Assembly (NCBI GenBank): GCA_019454625.1
Contig: JACFNY010000004.1
Coordinates: 1 to 15,671, forward strand
Length of the DNA: 15,671 nt
Origin: Sphingomonadaceae bacterium
GTDB taxonomy: Bacteria; Pseudomonadota; Alphaproteobacteria; Sphingomonadales; Sphingomonadaceae
Reading direction: 5' to 3'
Shown here: positions 7,123-15,354 of the stretch, piece by piece
How positions within the stretch are numbered: the stretch's first letter is position 1
Layout of the letters: each line of letters opens with the position of its first letter
Made by a program: the position numbers and the translations under genes
Notes under the pieces: generated by a model
Databases searched by the model: none
The model's input: only the letters and a program-made list of their open reading frames with translations
Told to the model about the DNA's origin: nothing

Positions 7123-7791
7123 ATGAAGAGCGCGGTCATCGTCTTCCCGGGCAGCAACTGCGACCGCGACATGGCCGTGGCGCTCCGCGCGGTGACGGGG
7201 CGCGCCCCGGCGATGGTCTGGCATCGCGAGGCGGAACTGCCGGATGTCGATGTCATCGCGCTTCCGGGAGGCTTCTCCTACGGCGACTACCTACGCACGG
7301 GCGCGATTTCGGCGCGGTCGCCAGTGATGGCCGCCGTGAAGCGCGCCGCCGAACAGGGTCGCTTCGTGCTCGGCGTCTGCAACGGCTTCCAGATCCTCAC
7401 CGAGACCGGGCTGCTGCCAGGCGCGCTGATGCGCAACGCAGGGCTGGACTTCGTCTGCCGCGACGTGCCGCTGACGGTCGAGAACACGCAGACGGCGTTC
7501 ACATCAGCCTACAAGGCGGGCGAGACGATCCGCATTCCGGTCGCGCACCACGACGGCAACTACTTCGCCGATGCCGCGACGCTCGACCGGCTCGAGGGCG
7601 AGGGCCGCGTCGTCTTGCGCTACGGCGAGGACGTGAACGGGGCGCAGCGCCGCATCGCGGGTATCGTCAATGAAACCGGCACCGTGCTCGGCATGATGCC
7701 GCACCCCGAACGCGCCATCGAGGCGGCGCAGGGCGGCACCGACGGCCGCCGCCTGTTCGAAGGCCTCGTGCGGGCCTTCGTCAACGCTTGA
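7123..7791 (+). CDS. purQ: Phosphoribosylformylglycinamidine synthase subunit PurQ (glutaminase)
   Basis: This class I glutamine amidotransferase subunit releases ammonia from glutamine for FGAR amidation by PurL. The 222-residue product starts [18 protein letters not shown]. It contains the oxyanion-region [16 protein letters not shown] at 47-62, the nucleophile Cys86 in [11 protein letters not shown], the HHDGNYFAD segment at 142-150, and the remaining triad residues His194 and Glu196 in [10 protein letters not shown]. All catalytic residues are present and the length is normal. It is tightly coupled to purS. The gene that should complete the complex, purL, does not follow; a convergent SDR gene starts the accessory region instead. 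Confidence 0.97.
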
Positions 7792-7809
7792 GGGCGCAGG
7801 AACCTCGGC

Positions 7810-7827
7810 ACGGCCTCAAACGGCCGT
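7810..7827. terminator. Short hairpin between convergent purQ and SDR genes
   Basis: ACGGCC (7810-7815) and GGCCGT (7822-7827) form a six-bp stem with a six-base loop that includes the SDR stop codon. No T run follows. It is the only terminator-like structure between the convergent genes and could serve both directions, but it is weak. Confidence 0.35.
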
Positions 7828-8595
7828 ATCGTGACCCCACTGGCGCTCGATGCGTCCGTCGATGCGGCGCACTGCGACCCAGTCCCCGCCCGCAAGCGTA
7901 TCGTCCTCGATGAGGTCGACGACGGCGTCGGCGATGTCCTCCGGCTGGCACATGGCGTTGCCCGCAAGGATCGGCGCCATCCACGGCGCATAGTCGCCGT
8001 CCGCACCGGTTTTCTTCAGGATCGGCGTGTTGGTGAGGCCGGGGAGCACACCCGCGACGCGCACGTTCCAGTCGGCCTTGAGCGAGGCGCAGCAGCGCGT
8101 GAACATCATCACGCCCGCCTTGGTGGTCGCATAGAGCGCGTCGCTGAAGCCCGTGCCGAGCGCCACGGTCGAGACGGTATTGACGATCACTCCGCCGCCC
8201 CGTGCGCGCATCGCCTGCGCGGCAAGCTGGGTGGCGATCACGAGCGACGACAGGTTCACGTCGATCATTCGCCGCAGCCCGCGCACCTCCGCCGTGGGAA
8301 ACTGCGGCGTGCCGGAGACAATGCCCGCATTGTTGAACAGGATGTCGCAGCCGCCGCGCGCCGACAGGCTGCCGAACCACGTTTCCACCGCATAGAGGTC
8401 GGAGAGGTCGAGCCGCACGGTTTCCGCGATTGCGCCCGCCGCGCGTGCACGCGCGGCGGCTTCCGCCATGCCCGCCTCGTCCACATCGACGATGATGAGC
8501 CTCGCCGCCCCCTTCCCCACAAGCTGCAACACGGCTGCCTGCCCGATTCCCGCCGCGCCGCCCGTCACGATCGCCGTCTTGCCGCTGATCTCCAC
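7816..8595 (-). CDS. Short-chain dehydrogenase/reductase
   Basis: This is a classical NAD(P)-dependent SDR of 259 residues, probably oxidising a secondary alcohol or reducing a ketone in a catabolic pathway. The cofactor motif TGGAAGIG is at 11-18 and Asp38 at the end of the second strand favours NAD. NNAG is at 88-91, and the catalytic residues are Ser142, Tyr155 and Lys159 (YATTK). The start is GTG at 8595, preceded by GGGGGGAGGATC, a strong ribosome site with five bases of spacing. It is divergent from the MFS carrier gene and shares its promoter region. The substrate is unknown; the C-terminal 60 residues give no specific hint. Confidence 0.9.
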   Translation of the reverse strand: MEISGKTAIVTGGAAGIGQAAVLQLVGKGAARLIIVDVDEAGMAEAAARARAAGAIAETVRLDLSDLYAVETWFGSLSARGGCDILFNNAGIVSGTPQFPTAEVRGLRRMIDVNLSSLVIATQLAAQAMRARGGGVIVNTVSTVALGTGFSDALYATTKAGVMMFTRCCASLKADWNVRVAGVLPGLTNTPILKKTGADGDYAPWMAPILAGNAMCQPEDIADAVVDLIEDDTLAGGDWVAVRRIDGRIERQWGHDTAV

Positions 8596-8640
8596 CCGAT
8601 CCTCCCCCCATCGCTTTTTGCCGCCGACACTAGACCGCGT

Positions 8641-8682
8641 TTGACAATGACAGCAATATACATAGATACCTAAGTAAATACG
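8641..8682. promoter_or_regulatory. Divergent promoter/operator region of the catabolic cluster
   Basis: This AT-rich island lies between the SDR and MFS genes. It holds a perfect -35 box TTGACA (8641-8646) facing the MFS gene, with a weak -10 (TAGATA at 8663-8668). An element at 8658-8682 (ATAC...CTAAGTAAATACG) resembles one at 13601-13624 in the other divergent region of the cluster. The position suggests an operator for a shared regulator, which is not encoded in this window. Confidence 0.45.
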
Positions 8683-8706
8683 AAAGCATATGGGGAGGAG
8701 GGTGCA

Positions 8707-10020
8707 TTGGCAGACGCGGCAGCAGCGCTTGCCCCGGAGCCGCCGGTTGCGGAGGCCAGGCTGGCAAGGCAGCGTCTCGTCGCGCTGTGGATGCTCACGA
8801 TCATCGGCACGATCAACTTCGTCGACCGGCAGATCCTGTCGGTCCTCATTGAGCCGATCCGCGCGGAGATGCAGTTCACCGACACGCAGTTCGGGCTGCT
8901 GACGGGACTCGCCTTCGCACTCTTCTACGCCATCGTCGGCCTGCCGATCGCAATGATCGCGGATCGCTGGCACAGGATTCGCCTGATCGCCGCCTCCTGC
9001 TTCGTGTGGAGCGGCTTTACGGCGCTTTGCGGCATGGCGAACTCGTTCGGACAGCTCGCTGCGGCGCGTTTCGGCGTCGGCATCGGCGAGGCGGGGGGCA
9101 CGGCGCCCTCGCTATCGGTCCTCGCGGACTACTATCCGCCGGAAAAGCGCCCGCTCATCATCGGCATCTTCACCGCGAACGGCCCGCTCGGCGTGTTCAT
9201 CGGGGCGACGTTCGGGGCGTGGGCCGCGCAGCATATCGGCTGGCGCGGCGCCTTCTTCACCGTGGGCGTCGTCGGCCTCGTCGCGGCGCCGCTCCTGCTG
9301 CTGCTCGTGCGCGAACCGGCACGGGGCCGCTCCGATGCCGCCCATGCGGACACCGCCGCCCCCTCGTTCGGCGCAAGCATGGCGCTGTTCTTCCGGCATC
9401 GCAGCCTGCGCCTGCTGCTCTTCGCGAGCGGCCTCGCCGCCTTCGTCAGCTACGGGATGCTGAACTGGATTCCGGCGTTCCTGATGCGCACGCAGGGTAT
9501 GCCCCTCGAAGCGCTCGCCGCGTGGTTCGGGCCGGCGGCAGGCTTCTCGATGGCGCTCGGCATCTGGGGCGGCGGCGCGCTCGTCAACCGTGCCGCGCGC
9601 AGAAGCACGCGCGCCTACGCGCTCATCCCCTGCGCCGCGACGCTGGTGATGATCCCGACGTTCATCGCCGCGCTGCTCGCGCCGGGCTGGGAATGGTCGC
9701 TGGCGCTGATGATCGTGCCGATGATCTGCTGCACCATCTATGTCGCGCCCGCGATCGCGCTCGTGCAGAATCTCACGCCGCCGCGCGCCCGCGCCACTGC
9801 CTCCGCGATCCTGCTGCTGGTGTTCAACCTCGTCGGGCTGGGCGGCGGGCCGTTGTTCATCGGCATGATCTCCGACGCGGTGGCGCCTGCGATGGGGAGC
9901 GAGAGCCTGCGCATCGCGCTTCTCTGCGCGATGCCCGCCGCGGCCGTGGCGGCGATCGCCCAGTTCTCCGTTTCGCGCGCCGTCGGGAACGACTTCAGAG
10001 CAATGCAGGCACAGGCATGA
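8707..10020 (+). CDS. MFS transporter, spinster-like
   Basis: This is a predicted inner-membrane secondary transporter of 437 residues with about twelve helices. The first helix carries INFVDRQILSVLIEPI at 36-51, the arrangement seen in bacterial spinster-type carriers. A motif-A-like loop, ADRWHRIR, is at 85-92, and RFGVGIGEAGGTAPS at 121-135 is the family's motif-B helix. The start is TTG at 8707, supported by GGGGAGGAGGG four bases upstream and the absence of any ATG with a ribosome site before the first helix. Its stop overlaps the start of the next SDR gene (ATGA), so it is the first gene of a plus-strand operon and the likely uptake or export step of the pathway. Confidence 0.9.
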   Translation: MADAAAALAPEPPVAEARLARQRLVALWMLTIIGTINFVDRQILSVLIEPIRAEMQFTDTQFGLLTGLAFALFYAIVGLPIAMIADRWHRIRLIAASCFVWSGFTALCGMANSFGQLAAARFGVGIGEAGGTAPSLSVLADYYPPEKRPLIIGIFTANGPLGVFIGATFGAWAAQHIGWRGAFFTVGVVGLVAAPLLLLLVREPARGRSDAAHADTAAPSFGASMALFFRHRSLRLLLFASGLAAFVSYGMLNWIPAFLMRTQGMPLEALAAWFGPAAGFSMALGIWGGGALVNRAARRSTRAYALIPCAATLVMIPTFIAALLAPGWEWSLALMIVPMICCTIYVAPAIALVQNLTPPRARATASAILLLVFNLVGLGGGPLFIGMISDAVAPAMGSESLRIALLCAMPAAAVAAIAQFSVSRAVGNDFRAMQAQA

Positions 10021-10889
10021 AAAACATCGCAGGCAAGACCGCGTTCATCACCGGCGGCGGCAGCGGCATCGGGCTGGCGACGGCGCGCGCACTGGCGCGC
10101 GAAGGCGCCCACGTCGTGATCGCCGATATCGACGAGGGCAGGCTCCGCGTGGGTGCGGACACGCTTGCTGCCGACGGCGCGGAGGCGCTGGCGATCCGAC
10201 TCGACGTGACCGACCCGGCATCGTGGGCCGCCGCGAAGGCCGCCACCGATGCCTTCGGCCCGGTCGGCATCCTGTGCAGCAACGCCGGTGTCGGCGGCGG
10301 CAGCGGCGCTTTCGAAAGCTACGACCCGGCCGTGTGGCGCTGGAACTATGCGGTCAATGCCGACGCACACCTCCACGCCTGTCGCACCTTCCTCGGTGAC
10401 ATGAAGGCGCGCGGCGAACCGGCGCATCTCGTCATCACCGCTTCCATGGTCGCGATCGTACCGCCGCCGATCTCCGCCGCCTACATCAGTTCGAAGTATG
10501 CCGCTCTCGGCATCGCCATGGCGCTCAGGAACGAACTTGCGGGCAGCAACGTCGGCATCTCGGTGCTCTGCCCCGGCATGGCCGCAACGGCGATCGTGGA
10601 GACGACGCGCGCGCTCCGCCCGGTCGACCCGGAAGTGGGTGACGCGGCAACCACTTCGCAGGCCATGCAGGCCGTGCTGGCCGGGGGCATGTCGCCGGGG
10701 CCGATCGGCGAGCATGTCGTCCGCGCGATCCGCGCCGACACGTTCTTCATCTTCACGCATCCCGAATGGAAGCCGCTCGTCGAAGCGCAGCACGCGAACC
10801 TGCTCGCTGCCTTCGGCGCGTCGGCGGACCCGGCCTATGCGGGCGACGACATCGGCGCGGTGGCCGCCGCCAATCGCCGCCCGCGATGA
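10017..10889 (+). CDS. Short-chain dehydrogenase/reductase
   Basis: A second classical SDR, 290 residues, is translationally coupled to the MFS gene. It has TGGGSGIG at 12-19, Asp37 and Asp39 after the second strand (NAD preference), SNAG at 88-91 and the triad Ser143, Tyr156, Lys160 (YISSK). Compared with the cluster's other SDR it has an extra C-terminal region of about 30 residues and a P-P-P-I segment before the catalytic tyrosine, so the two are unlikely to be recent duplicates. It is followed 22 bases later by the SnoaL-like gene. The substrate is unknown. Confidence 0.92.
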   Translation: MKNIAGKTAFITGGGSGIGLATARALAREGAHVVIADIDEGRLRVGADTLAADGAEALAIRLDVTDPASWAAAKAATDAFGPVGILCSNAGVGGGSGAFESYDPAVWRWNYAVNADAHLHACRTFLGDMKARGEPAHLVITASMVAIVPPPISAAYISSKYAALGIAMALRNELAGSNVGISVLCPGMAATAIVETTRALRPVDPEVGDAATTSQAMQAVLAGGMSPGPIGEHVVRAIRADTFFIFTHPEWKPLVEAQHANLLAAFGASADPAYAGDDIGAVAAANRRPR

Positions 10890-10911
10890 GACACGAGAAG
10901 GAAACACGCCA

Positions 10912-11301
10912 ATGACCGATGACGACATGCGCGCGCTTGCCAAACACTTCTTCGATGCCGTCGAGCAGGGCGACGTGGCGACGCTGCGGAGCTGCTATGC
11001 GGATGACGCTCGTATCTGGCACAATACCGACGAGGCCGAGCAGACGCCGGACGAGAACGCGGAGACACTCTCCGGCTTCGTCAAACGGATCAGCGACCGT
11101 GTCTATGCCAACCGCCGCGTCAATGTGTTCCCCGGCGGTTTCGTACAGCAGCACGAGCTCCACGGCACACGGCAGGACGGCGCGCGCCTGACGCTGCCCG
11201 CCTGCATCATCTGCCGCGTCGAAAACGGCAAGGTCACGCGGCTCGACGAGTACTTCGATTCCGCGCGCGTCGCGGAATTCCGGAAATTCGCCGCCACCTG
11301 A
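10912..11301 (+). CDS. SnoaL-like / NTF2-fold protein
   Basis: This 129-residue protein has the NTF2/SnoaL cone fold pattern. An N-terminal helix (ALAKHFFDAVEQGDVATLRSCYADDARIWHN at about 8-38) is followed by a helix around FVKRISDRV and the strand series RRVNVFPGGFVQQHELHG, RLTLPACIICRVENGKVTRLDEYFDSARV. This family includes isomerases, hydratases, cyclases and lyases of catabolic and polyketide pathways. Here it probably acts on a pathway intermediate, but the reaction cannot be assigned. The ATG has AAGGA upstream. It ends the MFS-SDR-SnoaL operon; the VOC gene 78 bases on has its own promoter. Confidence 0.87.
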   Translation: MTDDDMRALAKHFFDAVEQGDVATLRSCYADDARIWHNTDEAEQTPDENAETLSGFVKRISDRVYANRRVNVFPGGFVQQHELHGTRQDGARLTLPACIICRVENGKVTRLDEYFDSARVAEFRKFAAT

Positions 11302-11305
11302 TCTC

Positions 11306-11336
11306 GTATAATCGTCAATTAGATTGACGATTATAC
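11306..11336. promoter_or_regulatory. Perfect 14-bp inverted repeat, probable operator of the VOC gene
   Basis: GTATAATCGTCAAT (11306-11319) and ATTGACGATTATAC (11323-11336) are exact reverse complements separated by TAG. The right arm contains the -35 box of the VOC promoter. A dimeric repressor of TetR, MarR or GntR type bound here would block transcription. An RNA hairpin ending the upstream operon is a second possibility, but the AT-rich stem makes an operator more likely. Confidence 0.7.
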
Positions 11337-11352
11337 TTCGAAAGCGTAGTAT
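11324..11352 (+). promoter_or_regulatory. Sigma-70-type promoter of the VOC gene
   Basis: TTGACG (11324-11329) and TAGTAT (11347-11352) are separated by 17 bases, with five and four matches to consensus. The leader would be about 20 bases, containing the strong ribosome site AAGGAGG at 11367-11373. Confidence 0.6.
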
Positions 11353-11379
11353 TCGGCAAAAGACATAAGGAGGATCGAC

Positions 11380-12000
11380 ATGTCCAGGGACACCACCGCC
11401 CCGTTCGCGTTCCGGGGCGTCAACCATCTGGCGCTGGTCTGCAAGGATATGGCGCGCACCGTGGAATTCTACCGCGATGTCCTCGGGATGCCGCTCGTCA
11501 AGACGATCGACCTACCCGGAAACCGCGGCCAGCACTTCTTCTTCGATATCGGCAACGGCGACAGCTTGGCCTTCTTCTGGTTCAAGGACGCGCCTGAAGC
11601 AGCCCCCGGCATCGCCGCACCCGCCGCACTGCCGACACAGGGCTCCTTCGTTTCGGCACACGGCTCCATGAACCATATCGCCTTCAACGTGCCCGCCGAG
11701 CATATCGACGAGTATCACCAGCGCCTGATCGACAGGGGTGTCCAGGTCACCAAGATCCTGAACCACGACAATTCCGAGACGCAGGTCGCCGAGAGCGCGG
11801 ACGACGAGGACGTGTACGTGCGCTCCGTCTACTTCTTCGATCCCGATGGCGTCTGCCTCGAGTTCGCGGCGTGGACGCACGAGGGCTTCACCGACAAGGA
11901 CGTCGCGCACGATCCTGCCCGCGCCGACGGTTCGCGCGCGCTCGGCATGATCGTCGCGGCCGCGAAGAACGACGAAAAGACGATGGTTCCGGCGGAATAA
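11380..12000 (+). CDS. VOC-superfamily protein (glyoxalase/extradiol dioxygenase fold)
   Basis: This 206-residue member of the vicinal-oxygen-chelate superfamily has two beta-alpha-beta-beta-beta modules. Candidate metal ligands are His16 (VNHLALV), His99 (MNHIAFNVP) and Glu161 (CLEFAAW), the usual positions in extradiol dioxygenases and related enzymes. The segment YFFDPDGVCLEF at 151-162 is the classic end of the second module. The C-terminal 40 residues are an extension. AAGGAGG lies six bases before the ATG and the gene has its own promoter and palindrome. Ring-cleaving dioxygenase, isomerase and lyase activities are all possible, so I do not choose. Confidence 0.88.
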   Translation: MSRDTTAPFAFRGVNHLALVCKDMARTVEFYRDVLGMPLVKTIDLPGNRGQHFFFDIGNGDSLAFFWFKDAPEAAPGIAAPAALPTQGSFVSAHGSMNHIAFNVPAEHIDEYHQRLIDRGVQVTKILNHDNSETQVAESADDEDVYVRSVYFFDPDGVCLEFAAWTHEGFTDKDVAHDPARADGSRALGMIVAAAKNDEKTMVPAE

Positions 12001-12007
12001 ACGACCT

Positions 12008-12033
12008 ACCGCGCGGTCAGCCGACCGCGCGGT
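12008..12033. terminator. Bidirectional hairpin between VOC and ligase genes
   Basis: Two copies of the self-complementary decamer ACCGCGCGGT (12008-12017 and 12024-12033) flank a six-base loop, CAGCCG, giving a ten-bp perfect stem. It covers the end of the ligase gene and lies 8 bases after the VOC stop. There is no T run, but it is the only transcription-blocking structure between two convergent genes. Confidence 0.5.
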
Positions 12034-13579
12034 CCCATCCTTCCCAGTACGATCGGCGCAACTCGCGCCGCAGCACCTTGCCCGCCGCGTTGCGCGGTAG
12101 AACATCCACGATATCGACGCTCTTCGGTGCCTTGTAGGCCGCGATCCGTTCGCGCGCCCACGCAATCACGTCCTCCGCGGCGGGCGGCGCGCCGTCCGGC
12201 ACCACGAGCGCCTTCACCGCCTCACCCCAGCGCGCGTCGGGGACGCCGATGACGGCGACGTCGGCGACGCCGGGGCAGCCGAGGATCGCGTTCTCGACCT
12301 CGGCCGGATAGACGTTCTCGCCGCCCGAGACGATCATGTCCTTGATGCGGTCGTGGACGTAGAAATAGCCGTGTGCGTCGGCGAAGCCCGCGTCGCCGGT
12401 GTGCAGCCACCCGTCCGCCAGCGTCTCGACGGTCGCATCGGGACGGTTCCAGTAGCCCTTCATGACGATGTCGCCGCGGATCGCGATCTCACCGATCTCG
12501 CCGGGCGCGAGGCGCGCGCCGTCCGGCCCGAGGATCGCGATCTCGATGTCCGGCCAAGGCTGCCCGCAGGACTTGAGCCGCTCCGAGACCTCGTGCCCTG
12601 ACGGCGACAGGTAGGAACCGGCGCCGGTCGATTCGGTCATGCCATAGAACTGCACGAAGCCGCAGCCGAAGGCGGCCCGGGCGCGCACCAGCACGTCCTC
12701 CGCGATGGGCGAGGCACCGTAGGCGATGGTGCGCAGCGCCTCGAAGCGCGCTTCCGCGATCGCTTCCGTTTGCAGCATCATCTGGATCATGGCGGGTGCG
12801 AGGAAGGCGTGCGACACGCGTTCCTGCTCCAGCATCGCGACCGCCGCCTCGGCAGCGAAATCGCGGACGAGGACGAGGCGGCAGCCCTGCGCGAGGCCCG
12901 CGAAGCTGACGTTCGTGCCCGCGACGTGGAACAGCGGCATCACGATCATCACGGTCTCGCCCTTGTCGTAGGCGAAGCCGTCGACGCCCGCCGCCATCTC
13001 CATGAAGCGGCGATAGTTGCGGTTGCCGAGCACGACGCCCTTCGGCCGGCCGGTGGTGCCGCTGGTGTAGAGCTGCAGCACGTCGTCGTCGGGCTCGGGC
13101 GCGCCGGGGAGTTGCGCACCTTCTCCCGTCGCGAGCCAGGTGTCGAAGTTTTCGAAGTTATCGTGCGCGCCGTAAAGTGCGACGAGGCGCGGCGGGGCAG
13201 GGAGAAACTTCACCGCCTCCAGCGCGGTCTCGAAGAAGTCCTCGCCGACGAACAGCAGCTTCGGCGCAGCGTCTTCGAGGATGAAGGCGATCTCGCTCGC
13301 CACGAGGCGGCAGTTGACGGGTGTGAGACAGGCGCGCGCCCGCGCGGTGCCGAAGAACAGCGGATACCAGGCATCGTGGTTGCGCGTCAGCACCGACACG
13401 CGGTCGCCGGGCGCGACGCCGCTCGCCGCGAGCGCGCGCGCCACCGCCGCCTGCCGCCCGGCGAGCTCGGCGAAGGTCGTCTCGCGCGCGCCGAACAGGA
13501 CCGCGACTTCGCTGCCCCGCGCCTTCGCCTGCGCGGCCGGGATGTCCGACAGGCAGCGGATGGCCTCAAGGTCGATCAT
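12017..13579 (-). CDS. AMP-forming acyl-CoA ligase (adenylating enzyme)
   Basis: This ANL-superfamily ligase activates a carboxylic acid as its acyl-adenylate and then the CoA thioester. All core motifs are present in the 520-residue product: the P-loop YTSGTTGRPKG at 171-181, YGMTES at 312-317, WLHTGD at 391-396, the hinge segment DRIKDMIVSGGENVYPAEVE at 410-429, and PRNAAGKVLRR at 495-505 with catalytic Lys501. The substrate could be a medium or long-chain, aryl or terpenoid acid. The ATG at 13579 has GAGGGGAGAG just upstream. It is divergent from the MetE-like gene and convergent with the VOC gene, and is probably the CoA-activation step of the same pathway. Confidence 0.93.
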   Translation of the reverse strand: MIDLEAIRCLSDIPAAQAKARGSEVAVLFGARETTFAELAGRQAAVARALAASGVAPGDRVSVLTRNHDAWYPLFFGTARARACLTPVNCRLVASEIAFILEDAAPKLLFVGEDFFETALEAVKFLPAPPRLVALYGAHDNFENFDTWLATGEGAQLPGAPEPDDDVLQLYTSGTTGRPKGVVLGNRNYRRFMEMAAGVDGFAYDKGETVMIVMPLFHVAGTNVSFAGLAQGCRLVLVRDFAAEAAVAMLEQERVSHAFLAPAMIQMMLQTEAIAEARFEALRTIAYGASPIAEDVLVRARAAFGCGFVQFYGMTESTGAGSYLSPSGHEVSERLKSCGQPWPDIEIAILGPDGARLAPGEIGEIAIRGDIVMKGYWNRPDATVETLADGWLHTGDAGFADAHGYFYVHDRIKDMIVSGGENVYPAEVENAILGCPGVADVAVIGVPDARWGEAVKALVVPDGAPPAAEDVIAWARERIAAYKAPKSVDIVDVLPRNAAGKVLRRELRRSYWEGWDRAVG

Positions 13580-13600
13580 TCTCTCCCCTCGTTCTTGTTA

Positions 13601-13638
13601 ATACTAAGAATACTAACTAATACGGGAACCAGAAACAA
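13601..13638. promoter_or_regulatory. Divergent promoter/operator region between ligase and MetE-like genes
   Basis: The element at 13601-13624 (ATACTAAG...CTAATACG) resembles the one at 8658-8682. It includes the tandem nonamers AATACTAAG and AATACTAAC (13600-13617). A ligase promoter is visible on the minus strand: TTGTTT (13638-13633), 17 bases, TAGTAT (13615-13610), the same -10 hexamer as the VOC promoter. On the plus strand TTGTTA (13595-13600), 17 bases, TAATAC (13618-13623) could serve the MetE-like gene. Confidence 0.45.
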
Positions 13639-13655
13639 CCGGAGCGAGGTCCCCC

Positions 13656-14702
13656 GTGCTCGAACACCCGATCCTGCCTACCACAATCGTCGGCAGCTAT
13701 CCGCAGCCGGAATGGCTGATCGACCGCGAGCGGCTGAAAAAGAGCCTGCCGCCGCGCGTGCGCGCCGCCGAGCTGTGGCGCGTGCCCGAGCCGTGGCTGG
13801 CGGACGCGCAGGAACACGCGACGCTGATGGCGATCCGCGACCAGGAGGAGCTGGGCATCGACATCGTCGGCGACGGCGAGATGCGGCGCGAAAGCTATTC
13901 GAACCGGCTGGCGACGGCGCTTTCCGGTATCGACACCGAGACCCACGGCACCGCCATCGACCGTACCGGCAAGGCGAACCCGGTGCCGCGCGTCACCGGG
14001 CCGATCCGCCGCCTCTCGCCCATCGAATCGCAGGACGCCGCCTTCCTGAAGCGCCACGCGCGCGGCCCGGTGAAGCTGACCCTTCCGGGTCCGTTCACCA
14101 TGACGCAGCAGGCGCAGAACGATCATTACCCGACGAACGAAGCGCTCGCGATGGACTATGCCGACGCGGTGAACGCCGAAATCCGCGACCTGTTCGCCGC
14201 CGGGGTCGACGTCGTGCAGCTCGACGAGCCGTATCTTCAGGCCCGCGCCGACGCGGCGCAGGAGTACGCGCTCGCCGCCATCGACCGCGCGCTCGACGGC
14301 GTGGAGGGCACGACCGCGCTCCACATCTGCTTCGGCTACGCGCTCGTCCACGGCAGCCACGTCGCGAAGCCCAAGGCCTACGACTTCCTCGCCGAACTCA
14401 ACCGCTCGCGCGTCGACGTGATCTCCATCGAGGCCGCGCAGCCGCGGCTCGACCCTGCGATCCTCGCCGAGCTTCCCGACAAGATCATCATGTACGGCGT
14501 GCTCGACCTCGCCGATCCGGCCGTGGAAACGCCCGAGACGGTGGCGGCGCGCATCCGCGAGGCGCTGCGCTACGTCTCCACCGACCGGCTGTGGATCGCG
14601 CCCGACTGCGGCATGAAATACCACTCGCGCGACCTCGCGCAGGCGAAGCTGCGCGCGATGGTTGAGGGCACGGCGATCGTGCGGCGCGAACTGGGCCGCT
14701 AG
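13656..14702 (+). CDS. MetE C-terminal-domain-like zinc methyl/alkyltransferase
   Basis: The 348-residue product corresponds to the catalytic barrel of cobalamin-independent methionine synthase without the N-terminal half. The zinc site looks complete: His223 and Cys225 (HICFG), Glu259 (SIEAAQ) and Cys318 (APDCGMKYHS). QLDEP at 188-192 is the conserved MetE strand. Relatives include archaeal core methionine synthases, epoxyalkane:coenzyme M transferase and many uncharacterised catabolic proteins, so a thiol (homocysteine or another) may be the nucleophile and the alkyl donor is unknown. The start is GTG at 13656, with GGAGCGAGG about ten bases upstream. Its place in a degradation cluster argues against simple methionine synthesis. 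Confidence 0.85.
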   Translation: MLEHPILPTTIVGSYPQPEWLIDRERLKKSLPPRVRAAELWRVPEPWLADAQEHATLMAIRDQEELGIDIVGDGEMRRESYSNRLATALSGIDTETHGTAIDRTGKANPVPRVTGPIRRLSPIESQDAAFLKRHARGPVKLTLPGPFTMTQQAQNDHYPTNEALAMDYADAVNAEIRDLFAAGVDVVQLDEPYLQARADAAQEYALAAIDRALDGVEGTTALHICFGYALVHGSHVAKPKAYDFLAELNRSRVDVISIEAAQPRLDPAILAELPDKIIMYGVLDLADPAVETPETVAARIREALRYVSTDRLWIAPDCGMKYHSRDLAQAKLRAMVEGTAIVRRELGR

Positions 14703-15032
14703 AGTCGGTTCGATTTTGAATGGATCGCCAGTATCCCCCCCTCCCTCTTCAGGGGAAGGGTCGGGGAGTGGGGCGGTCATGATAAGCTGTGTCGAGCTTG
14801 GGGAAACGCTCCACCCCAACCCCTCCCCTGAAGAGGGAGGGGCTTCGGGGATCAGGCTCGGGTCGGCGCAAATCCGGGCTGCCATACGGTCGGGCGCGCC
14901 CTGATCGCTCAATCTGTGGATGATTCCCTGTGCCCCCGGCGTGCATTGCGACCGCAGCGCGCAGGTCTTGCACGCTGAACTCCGGCAGCGGATCGCCCGA
15001 GTGCATGTCACTCAGCCTTAGCCAAATGTCCA
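14703..15032. other. Gene-free interval
   Basis: No convincing coding sequence is found. The interval holds the inverted repeat at 14738-14842 and then about 190 bases of ordinary GC-rich sequence. An open frame on the minus strand from 15033 (ATG, MDIWLRLSDMHSGD) runs through the repeat to 14749 and matches nothing I recognise. It may be a gene remnant or chance. Confidence 0.5.
14738..14842. repeat. REP/MITE-like long imperfect inverted repeat
   Basis: Arms at 14738-14773 and 14811-14842 are imperfect reverse complements, with an 18-base identical core (CCCCTCCCTCTTCAGGGG on the left and its complement on the right) and a few mismatches beyond. They flank about 37 bases. The whole could fold into one long hairpin. 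Each arm also contains a small internal palindrome, CCCCT-CCCTCTTC-AGGGG. Repeats of this type are common between genes in sphingomonad genomes, as I recall. It lies just after the catabolic cluster. Confidence 0.7.
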
Positions 15033-15067
15033 TTGACTTGCTTCTTTTTTGTTGTATAAACACAACA
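15033..15067 (+). promoter_or_regulatory. Promoter of the XRE gene with overlapping operator-like inverted repeat
   Basis: TTGACT (15033-15038), 16 bases, TATAAA (15055-15060) is the best sigma-70 promoter in the window. The inverted repeat TGTTGT (15050-15055) / ACAACA (15062-15067) straddles the -10 box and the start point, the position expected for an autorepressed regulator. Confidence 0.65.
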
Positions 15068-15093
15068 TATCATTATCAATTCAAGACGATTTT

Positions 15094-15354
15094 GTGATAA
15101 ACTTATATAACCGCATCGCTGTCTTTCGAGCCGAACGCGGCGTGTCCCGCCGCGAACTCGCGGAGGCGGTGGGTGTGAACAACCAGACGATCGGCTATCT
15201 CGAGCGGGGCGACTACAAGCCCAGCCTCGAGCTCGCGATGAAGATCGCCGTCTATTTCGAAGTGCCGATCGAGCTTCTGTTTTCCTTCCGTCCCTTCGAA
15301 CCAGTCGCAGACACATTACGCCGTGCCGCCGCGGCCGGAGACCAACCCTCATGA
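15094..15354 (+). CDS. Small XRE-family HTH transcriptional regulator
   Basis: This 86-residue DNA-binding protein has a Cro/CI-type helix-turn-helix. The N-terminal VFRAERGVSRRELAEAVGVNNQTIGYLERGDYKPSLELAMKIA (10-52) contains both HTH helices, and YFEVPIELLFSF closes the domain. It matches the short YozG/HipB-like regulators that sit beside membrane protein genes. GTG at 15094 is chosen because transcription should begin near 15067, so the upstream in-frame TTG codons (15049, 15052) would not be in the mRNA. No strong ribosome site is seen. Its stop overlaps the next ATG (ATGA), implying coupled expression; the inverted repeat in its promoter suggests autoregulation. Confidence 0.86.
   Translation: MINLYNRIAVFRAERGVSRRELAEAVGVNNQTIGYLERGDYKPSLELAMKIAVYFEVPIELLFSFRPFEPVADTLRRAAAAGDQPS

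Follow-up and report, generated by a model that had tools for sequence, protein, structure and literature searches.

The window analyzed here, a 15,671-base stretch of contig JACFNY010000004.1 from a Sphingomonadaceae bacterium, contains seven adjacent genes that in related genomes belong to a longer cluster, which also encodes a 2-hydroxyacid dehydrogenase (HacidDH), a kinase of the APH type, and a divergent enolase homologue (Eno2). The reading that we favor, with slightly better than even confidence, is that these genes constitute one catabolic regulon in which a three-carbon end product would pass through reduction and phosphorylation to phosphoenolpyruvate (PEP), and that the window holds the upstream part of this regulon. 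The cluster is found in Sphingomonadales and Caulobacterales. An earlier note, made from the letters of the window, had assigned the seven genes to named families; all seven frames exist, and each of the seven proteins exceeds the curated Pfam cut-off. The genes and the operator-like boxes in their promoters are as follows, in window coordinates:

7816–8598, minus strand: SDR1, a short-chain dehydrogenase (Pfam adh_short, 136 bits), present in 20 of 48 related loci
8655–8680: operator-like box between the divergent genes SDR1 and MFS, in their promoter (scoring 17.1 bits at 8663 and 9.9 bits at 8655)
8707–10020, plus strand: MFS carrier (Pfam MFS_1, 157 bits), present in 30 of 48 loci
10017–10889, plus strand: SDR2 (Pfam match), present in 17 of 48 loci
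10912–11301, plus strand: SnoaL-like protein of the NTF2 fold (Pfam SnoaL_2, 50.6 bits), present in 29 of 48 loci
11380–12000, plus strand: VOC-fold protein with conserved His16, His99, and Glu161, present in 41 of 48 loci
12017–13579, minus strand: ACL1, an acyl-CoA ligase (Pfam AMP-binding, 264 bits), present in 29 of 48 loci
13598–13623: pair of operator-like boxes, one overlapping the other, within the ACL1–MetEC promoter (20.6 and 18.2 bits)
13656–14702, plus strand: MetEC, a zinc protein resembling the C-terminal domain of MetE (Pfam Meth_synt_2, 142 bits), with the zinc ligands in 81 of 81 sequences

The MFS and SDR2 frames share 4 bases, and the two genes are therefore probably co-transcribed.

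The related loci are the best 80 of 161 related places found with MetEC in named genomes, such that all counts derived from them are conditional on MetEC. Genes were called by a custom GC-frame script rather than a standard finder; the script missed APH in three loci, which were checked again by tblastn. The closest relative is Sphingosinicella soli (L002), in which the seven genes are 83–96% identical to those of the window and stand in the same order, the identity of the SnoaL-like protein being measured over 60% of its length. As in the window, they follow purQ, with one sulfotransferase-like gene (L002 3221–4186) between purQ and SDR1 that is missing from the window. Downstream of MetEC, S. 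soli carries ABH1, HacidDH, Eno2, APH, ABH2, ACL2, and MarR1, followed by LeuD, LeuC, and an FMN-reductase-like gene, a label that was tested on L006. A conserved cluster of ~15–20 genes is observed in S. soli and in many Sphingopyxis and Phenylobacterium loci; in addition to HacidDH, Eno2, and the APH-type kinase, its families include alpha/beta hydrolases, a second acyl-CoA ligase, and MarR regulators. In many Sphingopyxis loci, genes for a TonB receptor and a GST also lie upstream, and the SnoaL and VOC genes are separated by genes for a CMD-family protein, an SMP-30-like protein, and another GST.

The downstream genes are among the most constant members of this cluster. Among the 48 loci with 8 kb on both sides, for which family labels were assigned by single-linkage BLAST at 45% identity, MetEC is present in 48, Eno2 and ABH1 in 46 each, HacidDH in 45, APH and ABH2 in 44 each, VOC and MarR2 in 41 each, and ACL2 and FMN reductase in 37 each. 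By these counts, VOC and MetEC are in the constant part of the cluster, and SDR1 and SDR2 are variable. HacidDH, Eno2, and APH are consecutive in 55 of the 58 loci of the set carrying Eno2. LeuD (24 of 48 loci) and LeuC (22 of 48) adjoin the cluster in S. soli and in many Sphingopyxis. We regard them as housekeeping genes on its flank, even though the motif described below is present in 29 of 29 MarR2–LeuD promoters. A second count, by tblastn at 50% identity and hence slightly different from the first, covers 66 loci with a MetEC of at least 70% identity, 52 of them with 8 kb upstream: VOC is found in 42 of the 52, SnoaL and ACL1 in 31 each, MFS in 27, SDR1 in 18, and SDR2 in 17. All six other window genes are present in 13 of these loci, at least four in 26, and none in three. 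The co-occurrence in other genomes that the earlier note had proposed as a check is thereby seen, its absence, which the note had named as a refutation, does not apply, and these counts indicate that the grouping exceeds chance. Around a more distant MetEC (14 loci), SnoaL occurs once, ACL1 twice, and the other window genes not at all. In a distant genome of the class (G502), a single stretch (L149) encodes MFS, HacidDH, Eno2, APH, an ABH2-like protein, an ACL1-like protein, and a VOC-fold protein of 190 amino acids; L149 is a distant counterpart of the set described here.

The promoters of the cluster have an operator-like site in common. A motif that reads TAGTATACTAAGCAATTT was learned from 67 ACL2–MarR1 and ACL1–MetEC promoter sequences (20 distinct sites), with the window and S. 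soli left out. Only two places in the window score above 10 bits, the ACL1–MetEC boxes and positions 8663–8680 in the SDR1–MFS promoter, where the match at 8655 is a weaker, overlapping one; the best score in 30 first-order Markov shuffles is 11.5 bits. The SDR1–MFS promoter type is absent from the training set, and the ACL1–MetEC type was used in it. In 81 sequences, 228 merged sites reach at least 14 bits, 226 of them outside genes. Besides MarR2–LeuD, promoter types outside the training set carry the motif in 23 of 23 cases (MarR2–MetEC), 12 of 13 (DUF3237–TonB types), and 28 of 43 (FMN reductase–MarR2), compared with 11 of 276 junctions between genes of no recurrent family. From these promoter sites, the cluster looks like a single regulon. 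Because MarR genes lie within the cluster, a MarR-family protein may be what binds the sites, and a regulator of this family would probably control the regulon.

Judged by its sequence, Eno2 is a paralogue of the glycolytic enolase. An enolase match is found in 146 of 147 genomes of the order, the housekeeping-type enzymes among the matches listed being 39–46% identical to Eno2, and a gene of the second type, at 59–93% identity to Eno2, in seven of the 147. Six of these seven genomes are at least 99% complete, and all six have both Eno2 and a housekeeping-type enolase; in the genome of the window, which is 78% complete, only Eno2 was found. Eno2 forms a separate clade (support 0.995). In what we take to be yeast enolase numbering, Glu168 is replaced by Asp and His373 by Ala in 77 of 77 Eno2 sequences, and Glu and His are present in 16 of 16 housekeeping copies, a selection among the matches listed. 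The position of Ser39 is Ala in 64 of the 77, Ser in 2, and a gap in 11. Asp246, Glu295, Asp320, Lys345, Lys396, and Glu211 are retained in all 77, which are distinct but related sequences from which those shorter than 390 (first set) or 330 (second set) amino acids were dropped. Glu168 and His373 presumably lie beside the C3 hydroxyl of 2-phosphoglycerate, the leaving group, and their replacement suggests that the substrate of Eno2 carries a different or larger group at C3. A tentative and rather doubtful extension is that Eno2 is not a 2-phosphoglycerate hydratase and removes a larger C3 group, for example, methanol from 2-phospho-3-methoxylactate; 3-methoxypyruvate would then be reduced by HacidDH and phosphorylated by APH to give this intermediate. 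If so, a kinase and a divergent enolase would act as a phosphorylation-driven C–X lyase, releasing PEP from the substituted pyruvates that ring cleavage leaves behind. This would be a reaction type new to the enolase subgroup, and the module, now annotated as glycolysis, would be a general part of proteobacterial catabolism.

The pairing of APH with Eno2 extends beyond the cluster. Of 387 alphaproteobacterial genomes, 43 carry an APH homologue (34 of 264 genera sampled), and the wider context was fetched for 38 of the 43, the genome of the window, G373, G152, G165, and G211 being left out. In 31 of the 38 loci, Eno2 lies within 600 bases of APH on the same strand; it is farther off in two and absent from five. 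HacidDH, at 45% identity or more, is present in 10. L118 and L052 are identical DNA, as are L087 and L065, so that this set and the MetEC set have one locus in common. On two named Rhizobium plasmids (L172 and L176), one stretch encodes Eno2, a VOC protein, APH, a HacidDH that is annotated as C-terminal binding protein, and PEP carboxylase, together with an alcohol dehydrogenase and an NAD(P)H-dependent oxidoreductase; FAH and CMD genes are close by, and branched-chain-type ABC transporter genes accompany the set. Eno2, APH, HacidDH, and a full PEP carboxylase domain are found again in L155. The PEP carboxylase of the Rhizobium plasmids and L155 is the best hint that the product of Eno2 is PEP. 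All five plasmid copies of Eno2 that were read, Cupriavidus among them, have Asp and Ala, and 6 of the 17 plasmid records with a match label the gene phosphopyruvate hydratase, the others having no label there. The kinase–enolase module is widely distributed and probably misannotated. Among metabolic enzymes, enolase counts as one of the most uniform, and a catabolic enzyme such as Eno2 would be easily overlooked. The cluster offers a genetic handle, with its common operator-like sites, the cultured S. soli DSM 17328, and many cultured Sphingopyxis.

The earlier note had guessed at an ether, methoxylated, or terpenoid-like substrate. Several of the encoded proteins point toward aromatic, perhaps methoxylated, acids as the substrate class. 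The pointers are the closest solved matches of SDR2, which are C-alpha-dehydrogenases, those of ACL1, which include a feruloyl-CoA synthetase, and a gene set in seven loci that comprises a Rieske protein with the C-terminal domain of LigXa (455 bits), a Gfo/Idh oxidoreductase, and an NMT1/THI5-like protein, whose initial reading as a 4,5-dihydroxyphthalate decarboxylase was not confirmed. LigXa is an aromatic O-demethylase, and the clusters with this Rieske protein lean toward methoxylated aromatics; no such gene is seen on the window's own contig. In the VOC protein, the metal triad is conserved, with His16 in 46 of 49 sequences (three gaps) and His99 and Glu161 in all 49. Its best sequence match among solved proteins is 9u42 (38 bits), which also ranks first by Foldseek and, tied with glyoxalase I, by structural Z score and is entitled homogentisate 1,2-dioxygenase, a VOC-fold protein from Acinetobacter; the metal triad is present in both. 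Ring cleavage by the VOC protein is a lead to follow rather than a result. The model of the SnoaL-like protein (predicted local distance difference test score, pLDDT, of 85.8) matches NTF2-fold proteins of so many functions that none follows for it. ABH2 has weak lipase matches only. For GST2 against solved structures, yeast Gtt2 ranks first and LigF fourth, and no function was assigned.

In the proposed pathway, a carboxylic compound, probably aromatic, would be taken up via the MFS carrier and, in relatives, also via the TonB receptor. The SDRs, the CoA ligases, and the SnoaL-like protein would prepare it by side-chain oxidation and CoA activation, and the VOC metalloprotein and the alpha/beta hydrolases would presumably cleave the ring or chain. 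A C3 fragment of the form X-CH2-CO-COOH may then be reduced by HacidDH, the APH kinase would phosphorylate the 2-hydroxyl of the resulting acid, and Eno2, altered around the C3 leaving group, would eliminate HX, by dehydration or another cleavage, to yield PEP. MetEC is predicted to pass a methyl or alkyl group on to a thiol that resembles homocysteine.

MetEC has 348 amino acids and consists of the Meth_synt_2 domain only; the N-terminal folate-binding half of MetE is not present. All 81 sequences examined retain six residues for zinc and homocysteine, and Ser433 is present in 78, with gaps in three. These residues are compatible with alkyl transfer, and their conservation makes a thiol with an amino-acid end the likely acceptor. 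The nearest solved relative is 3rpd, which is MesD according to PMC7857596. An assignment of MetEC as MesD was rejected on the basis of its score on PRK09121, 250.2 bits against a cut-off of 392, and of the absence of MesX (DUF1852) from 16 genomes, 13 of them MetEC carriers, in a search whose own controls gave no match. Within the 147 genomes of the order, MetEC is present at 72% identity or more in four (the window's own included) and at 59–61% in eight, and a 39% homologue is found in two. The same search finds MesX in two of the 147, G126 and G087, where its neighbor in both cases is the 39% homologue, a separate protein; in G087 (C12:294794–295012), where a MesD-like gene stands alongside, only the final quarter of the MesX family is matched, and MesX looks partial. 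Relatives of MetEC that are 55–58% identical occur on plasmids (four records). At four loci in betaproteobacterial metagenome-assembled genomes (L074, L076, L077, and L079), ~61% relatives stand with SMP-30-like, enoyl-CoA hydratase-like, and CoA-transferase-like proteins, as judged by eye, which is a further context for MetEC.

The cluster continues on the window's own contig. Several features flank the seven genes:

7123–7791: purQ
14738–14842: REP-like inverted repeat, inside the cluster and not its border
15049–15354, plus strand: XRE-type helix-turn-helix gene (Pfam match)
15351 to the window end: small open frame with no Pfam match

The earlier note had placed purQ on the left side, where it is confirmed, and the repeat at the right border. 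The repeat is real: its arms (14738–14766 and 14814–14842) are 93% complementary, and its unit is found at six places in the genome with at most two mismatches, compared with none for the reversed control. Its role as a border does not hold, as the cluster resumes beyond it. After the XRE gene and the small frame, ABH1, HacidDH, Eno2 (C174:17598–18893), and a cut-off APH follow at contig positions 15953–19690, and the contig stops inside APH. A run of 10 N (15672–15681) divides the window from these genes, such that the assembly links them to it by scaffolding; the arrangement in S. soli, in which ABH1 is directly 3′ of MetEC, is consistent with this linkage. Neither S. soli nor any of the other 79 related loci has the XRE gene (tblastn, 1e-10), which is an apparent insertion; together with the small frame, and beside the repeat, it separates MetEC from the rest of the cluster in the window. 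Rfam and tRNA scans of the window gave no match.

Several observations weigh against a single PEP-yielding regulon for aromatic compounds. The SDR1–MFS promoters reach 14 bits in only 5 of 18 cases, so that the common site is weak for this type, and the MarR2–LeuD site may serve MarR2 alone. MetEC is not indispensable, since G072 and G128 lack it yet keep the downstream genes. A search of the window's own genome for ABH2 was empty, which shows little given the incompleteness of this genome and the end of the contig inside APH. Glyoxalase I ties with 9u42 in structural Z score for the VOC protein. Paracoccus and Roseibium plasmids have APH and Eno2 with sugar-type ABC transporters and FAH, in the order LacI-APH-Eno2-FAH-SDR, a context that does not speak for an aromatic substrate; FAH also follows Eno2 in L152. 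These contexts are the best hint that the product of Eno2 might be other than PEP, and with the room at C3, they would fit a phosphorylating dehydratase in which APH and Eno2 convert larger 2,3-dihydroxy (sugar) acids via a 2-phosphoenol to 2-keto-3-deoxy acids, an activity that the cluster would apply to a substituted intermediate rather than to PEP formation. This reading is rather unlikely in our estimate: the PEP carboxylase near the Rhizobium module points to PEP, and no phosphate-removing enzyme was recognized.

Eno2 could also be a glycolytic isozyme, with HacidDH, APH, and Eno2 acting as an ordinary hydroxypyruvate reductase, glycerate 2-kinase, and enolase that convert hydroxypyruvate or glycerate to PEP, and with the residue changes tuning D/L preference or being neutral. 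The score of Eno2 on the curated enolase equivalog (457 bits, cut-off 300), the resemblance of HacidDH to phosphoglycerate and glyoxylate/hydroxypyruvate reductases, and the PEP carboxylase of the Rhizobium stretch all agree with this alternative, which we regard as a real if minor possibility; the carriers already have a housekeeping-type enolase, and the Asp and Ala that are fixed in 77 of 77 sequences occupy positions that we take to be next to the substrate C3 hydroxyl. It is very unlikely that MetEC is a methionine-biosynthesis gene placed here by chance. Its zinc and homocysteine residues and its relation to 3rpd (MesD in PMC7857596) would suit such a role, but MetH is present in 15 of the 16 genomes tested, the exception being the incomplete genome of the window, and the methionine supply accordingly does not seem to need MetEC; MesX is missing from the same 16 genomes, and the neighbors of MetEC relatives in other phyla, although different, look catabolic by eye. 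Most improbable of all is that the seven genes constitute a self-contained pathway, as the earlier note had implied. They are adjacent in the window and in S. soli, but the downstream genes vary less than SDR1 and SDR2 do, share the motif, and follow on the same contig. The idea of an undescribed accessory catabolic cluster is supported, and the limits of a seven-gene unit were wrong. No described route was matched, and no description of the cluster, or of a catabolic kinase–enolase pair, was found in the open-licence literature searched.

Comparison with known systems shows partial likenesses for the favored regulon. Similar to the core methionine synthase MesD, MetEC has a single Meth_synt_2 domain with the zinc and homocysteine residues and 3rpd as its nearest solved relative; it differs in falling below the PRK09121 cut-off and in standing without MesX in the genomes tested, the MesX-linked homologues being separate proteins. 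MetEC presumably also resembles the epoxide:coenzyme M transferase, a zinc-dependent thiol alkyl transferase of the MetE kind whose gene likewise lies among SDRs in a catabolic cluster. The main difference is that MetEC keeps Glu484 and Asp599, which bind the amino end of homocysteine, in 81 of 81 sequences, residues that a coenzyme M enzyme would not be expected to need. With the sphingomonad β-aryl ether (Lig) pathway, the likenesses are the C-alpha-dehydrogenase matches of SDR2 and the GSTs of the related clusters, GST2 having LigF as its fourth solved match. In contrast, no GST is seen in the window, and a kinase–enolase module, MetEC, and a pair of CoA ligases are not known from the Lig pathway.

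The order of reactions expected for HacidDH, APH, and Eno2 resembles the conversion of hydroxypyruvate to PEP in the serine cycle, and ACL2 comes close to 3-(methylthio)propionyl-CoA ligase without reaching its cut-off (709.6 versus 822 bits). A serine-cycle or dimethylsulfoniopropionate reading was set aside, as no other genes of these routes were recognized in the cluster, the genomes themselves not having been searched for them. With the glycolytic enolase (EC 4.2.1.11), Eno2 shares the fold, the metal ligands, Lys345, Lys396, Glu211, Arg374, and Ser375. The differences are Asp in place of Glu168, Ala in place of His373 and mostly of Ser39, a clade of its own, and the coupling to an APH kinase.

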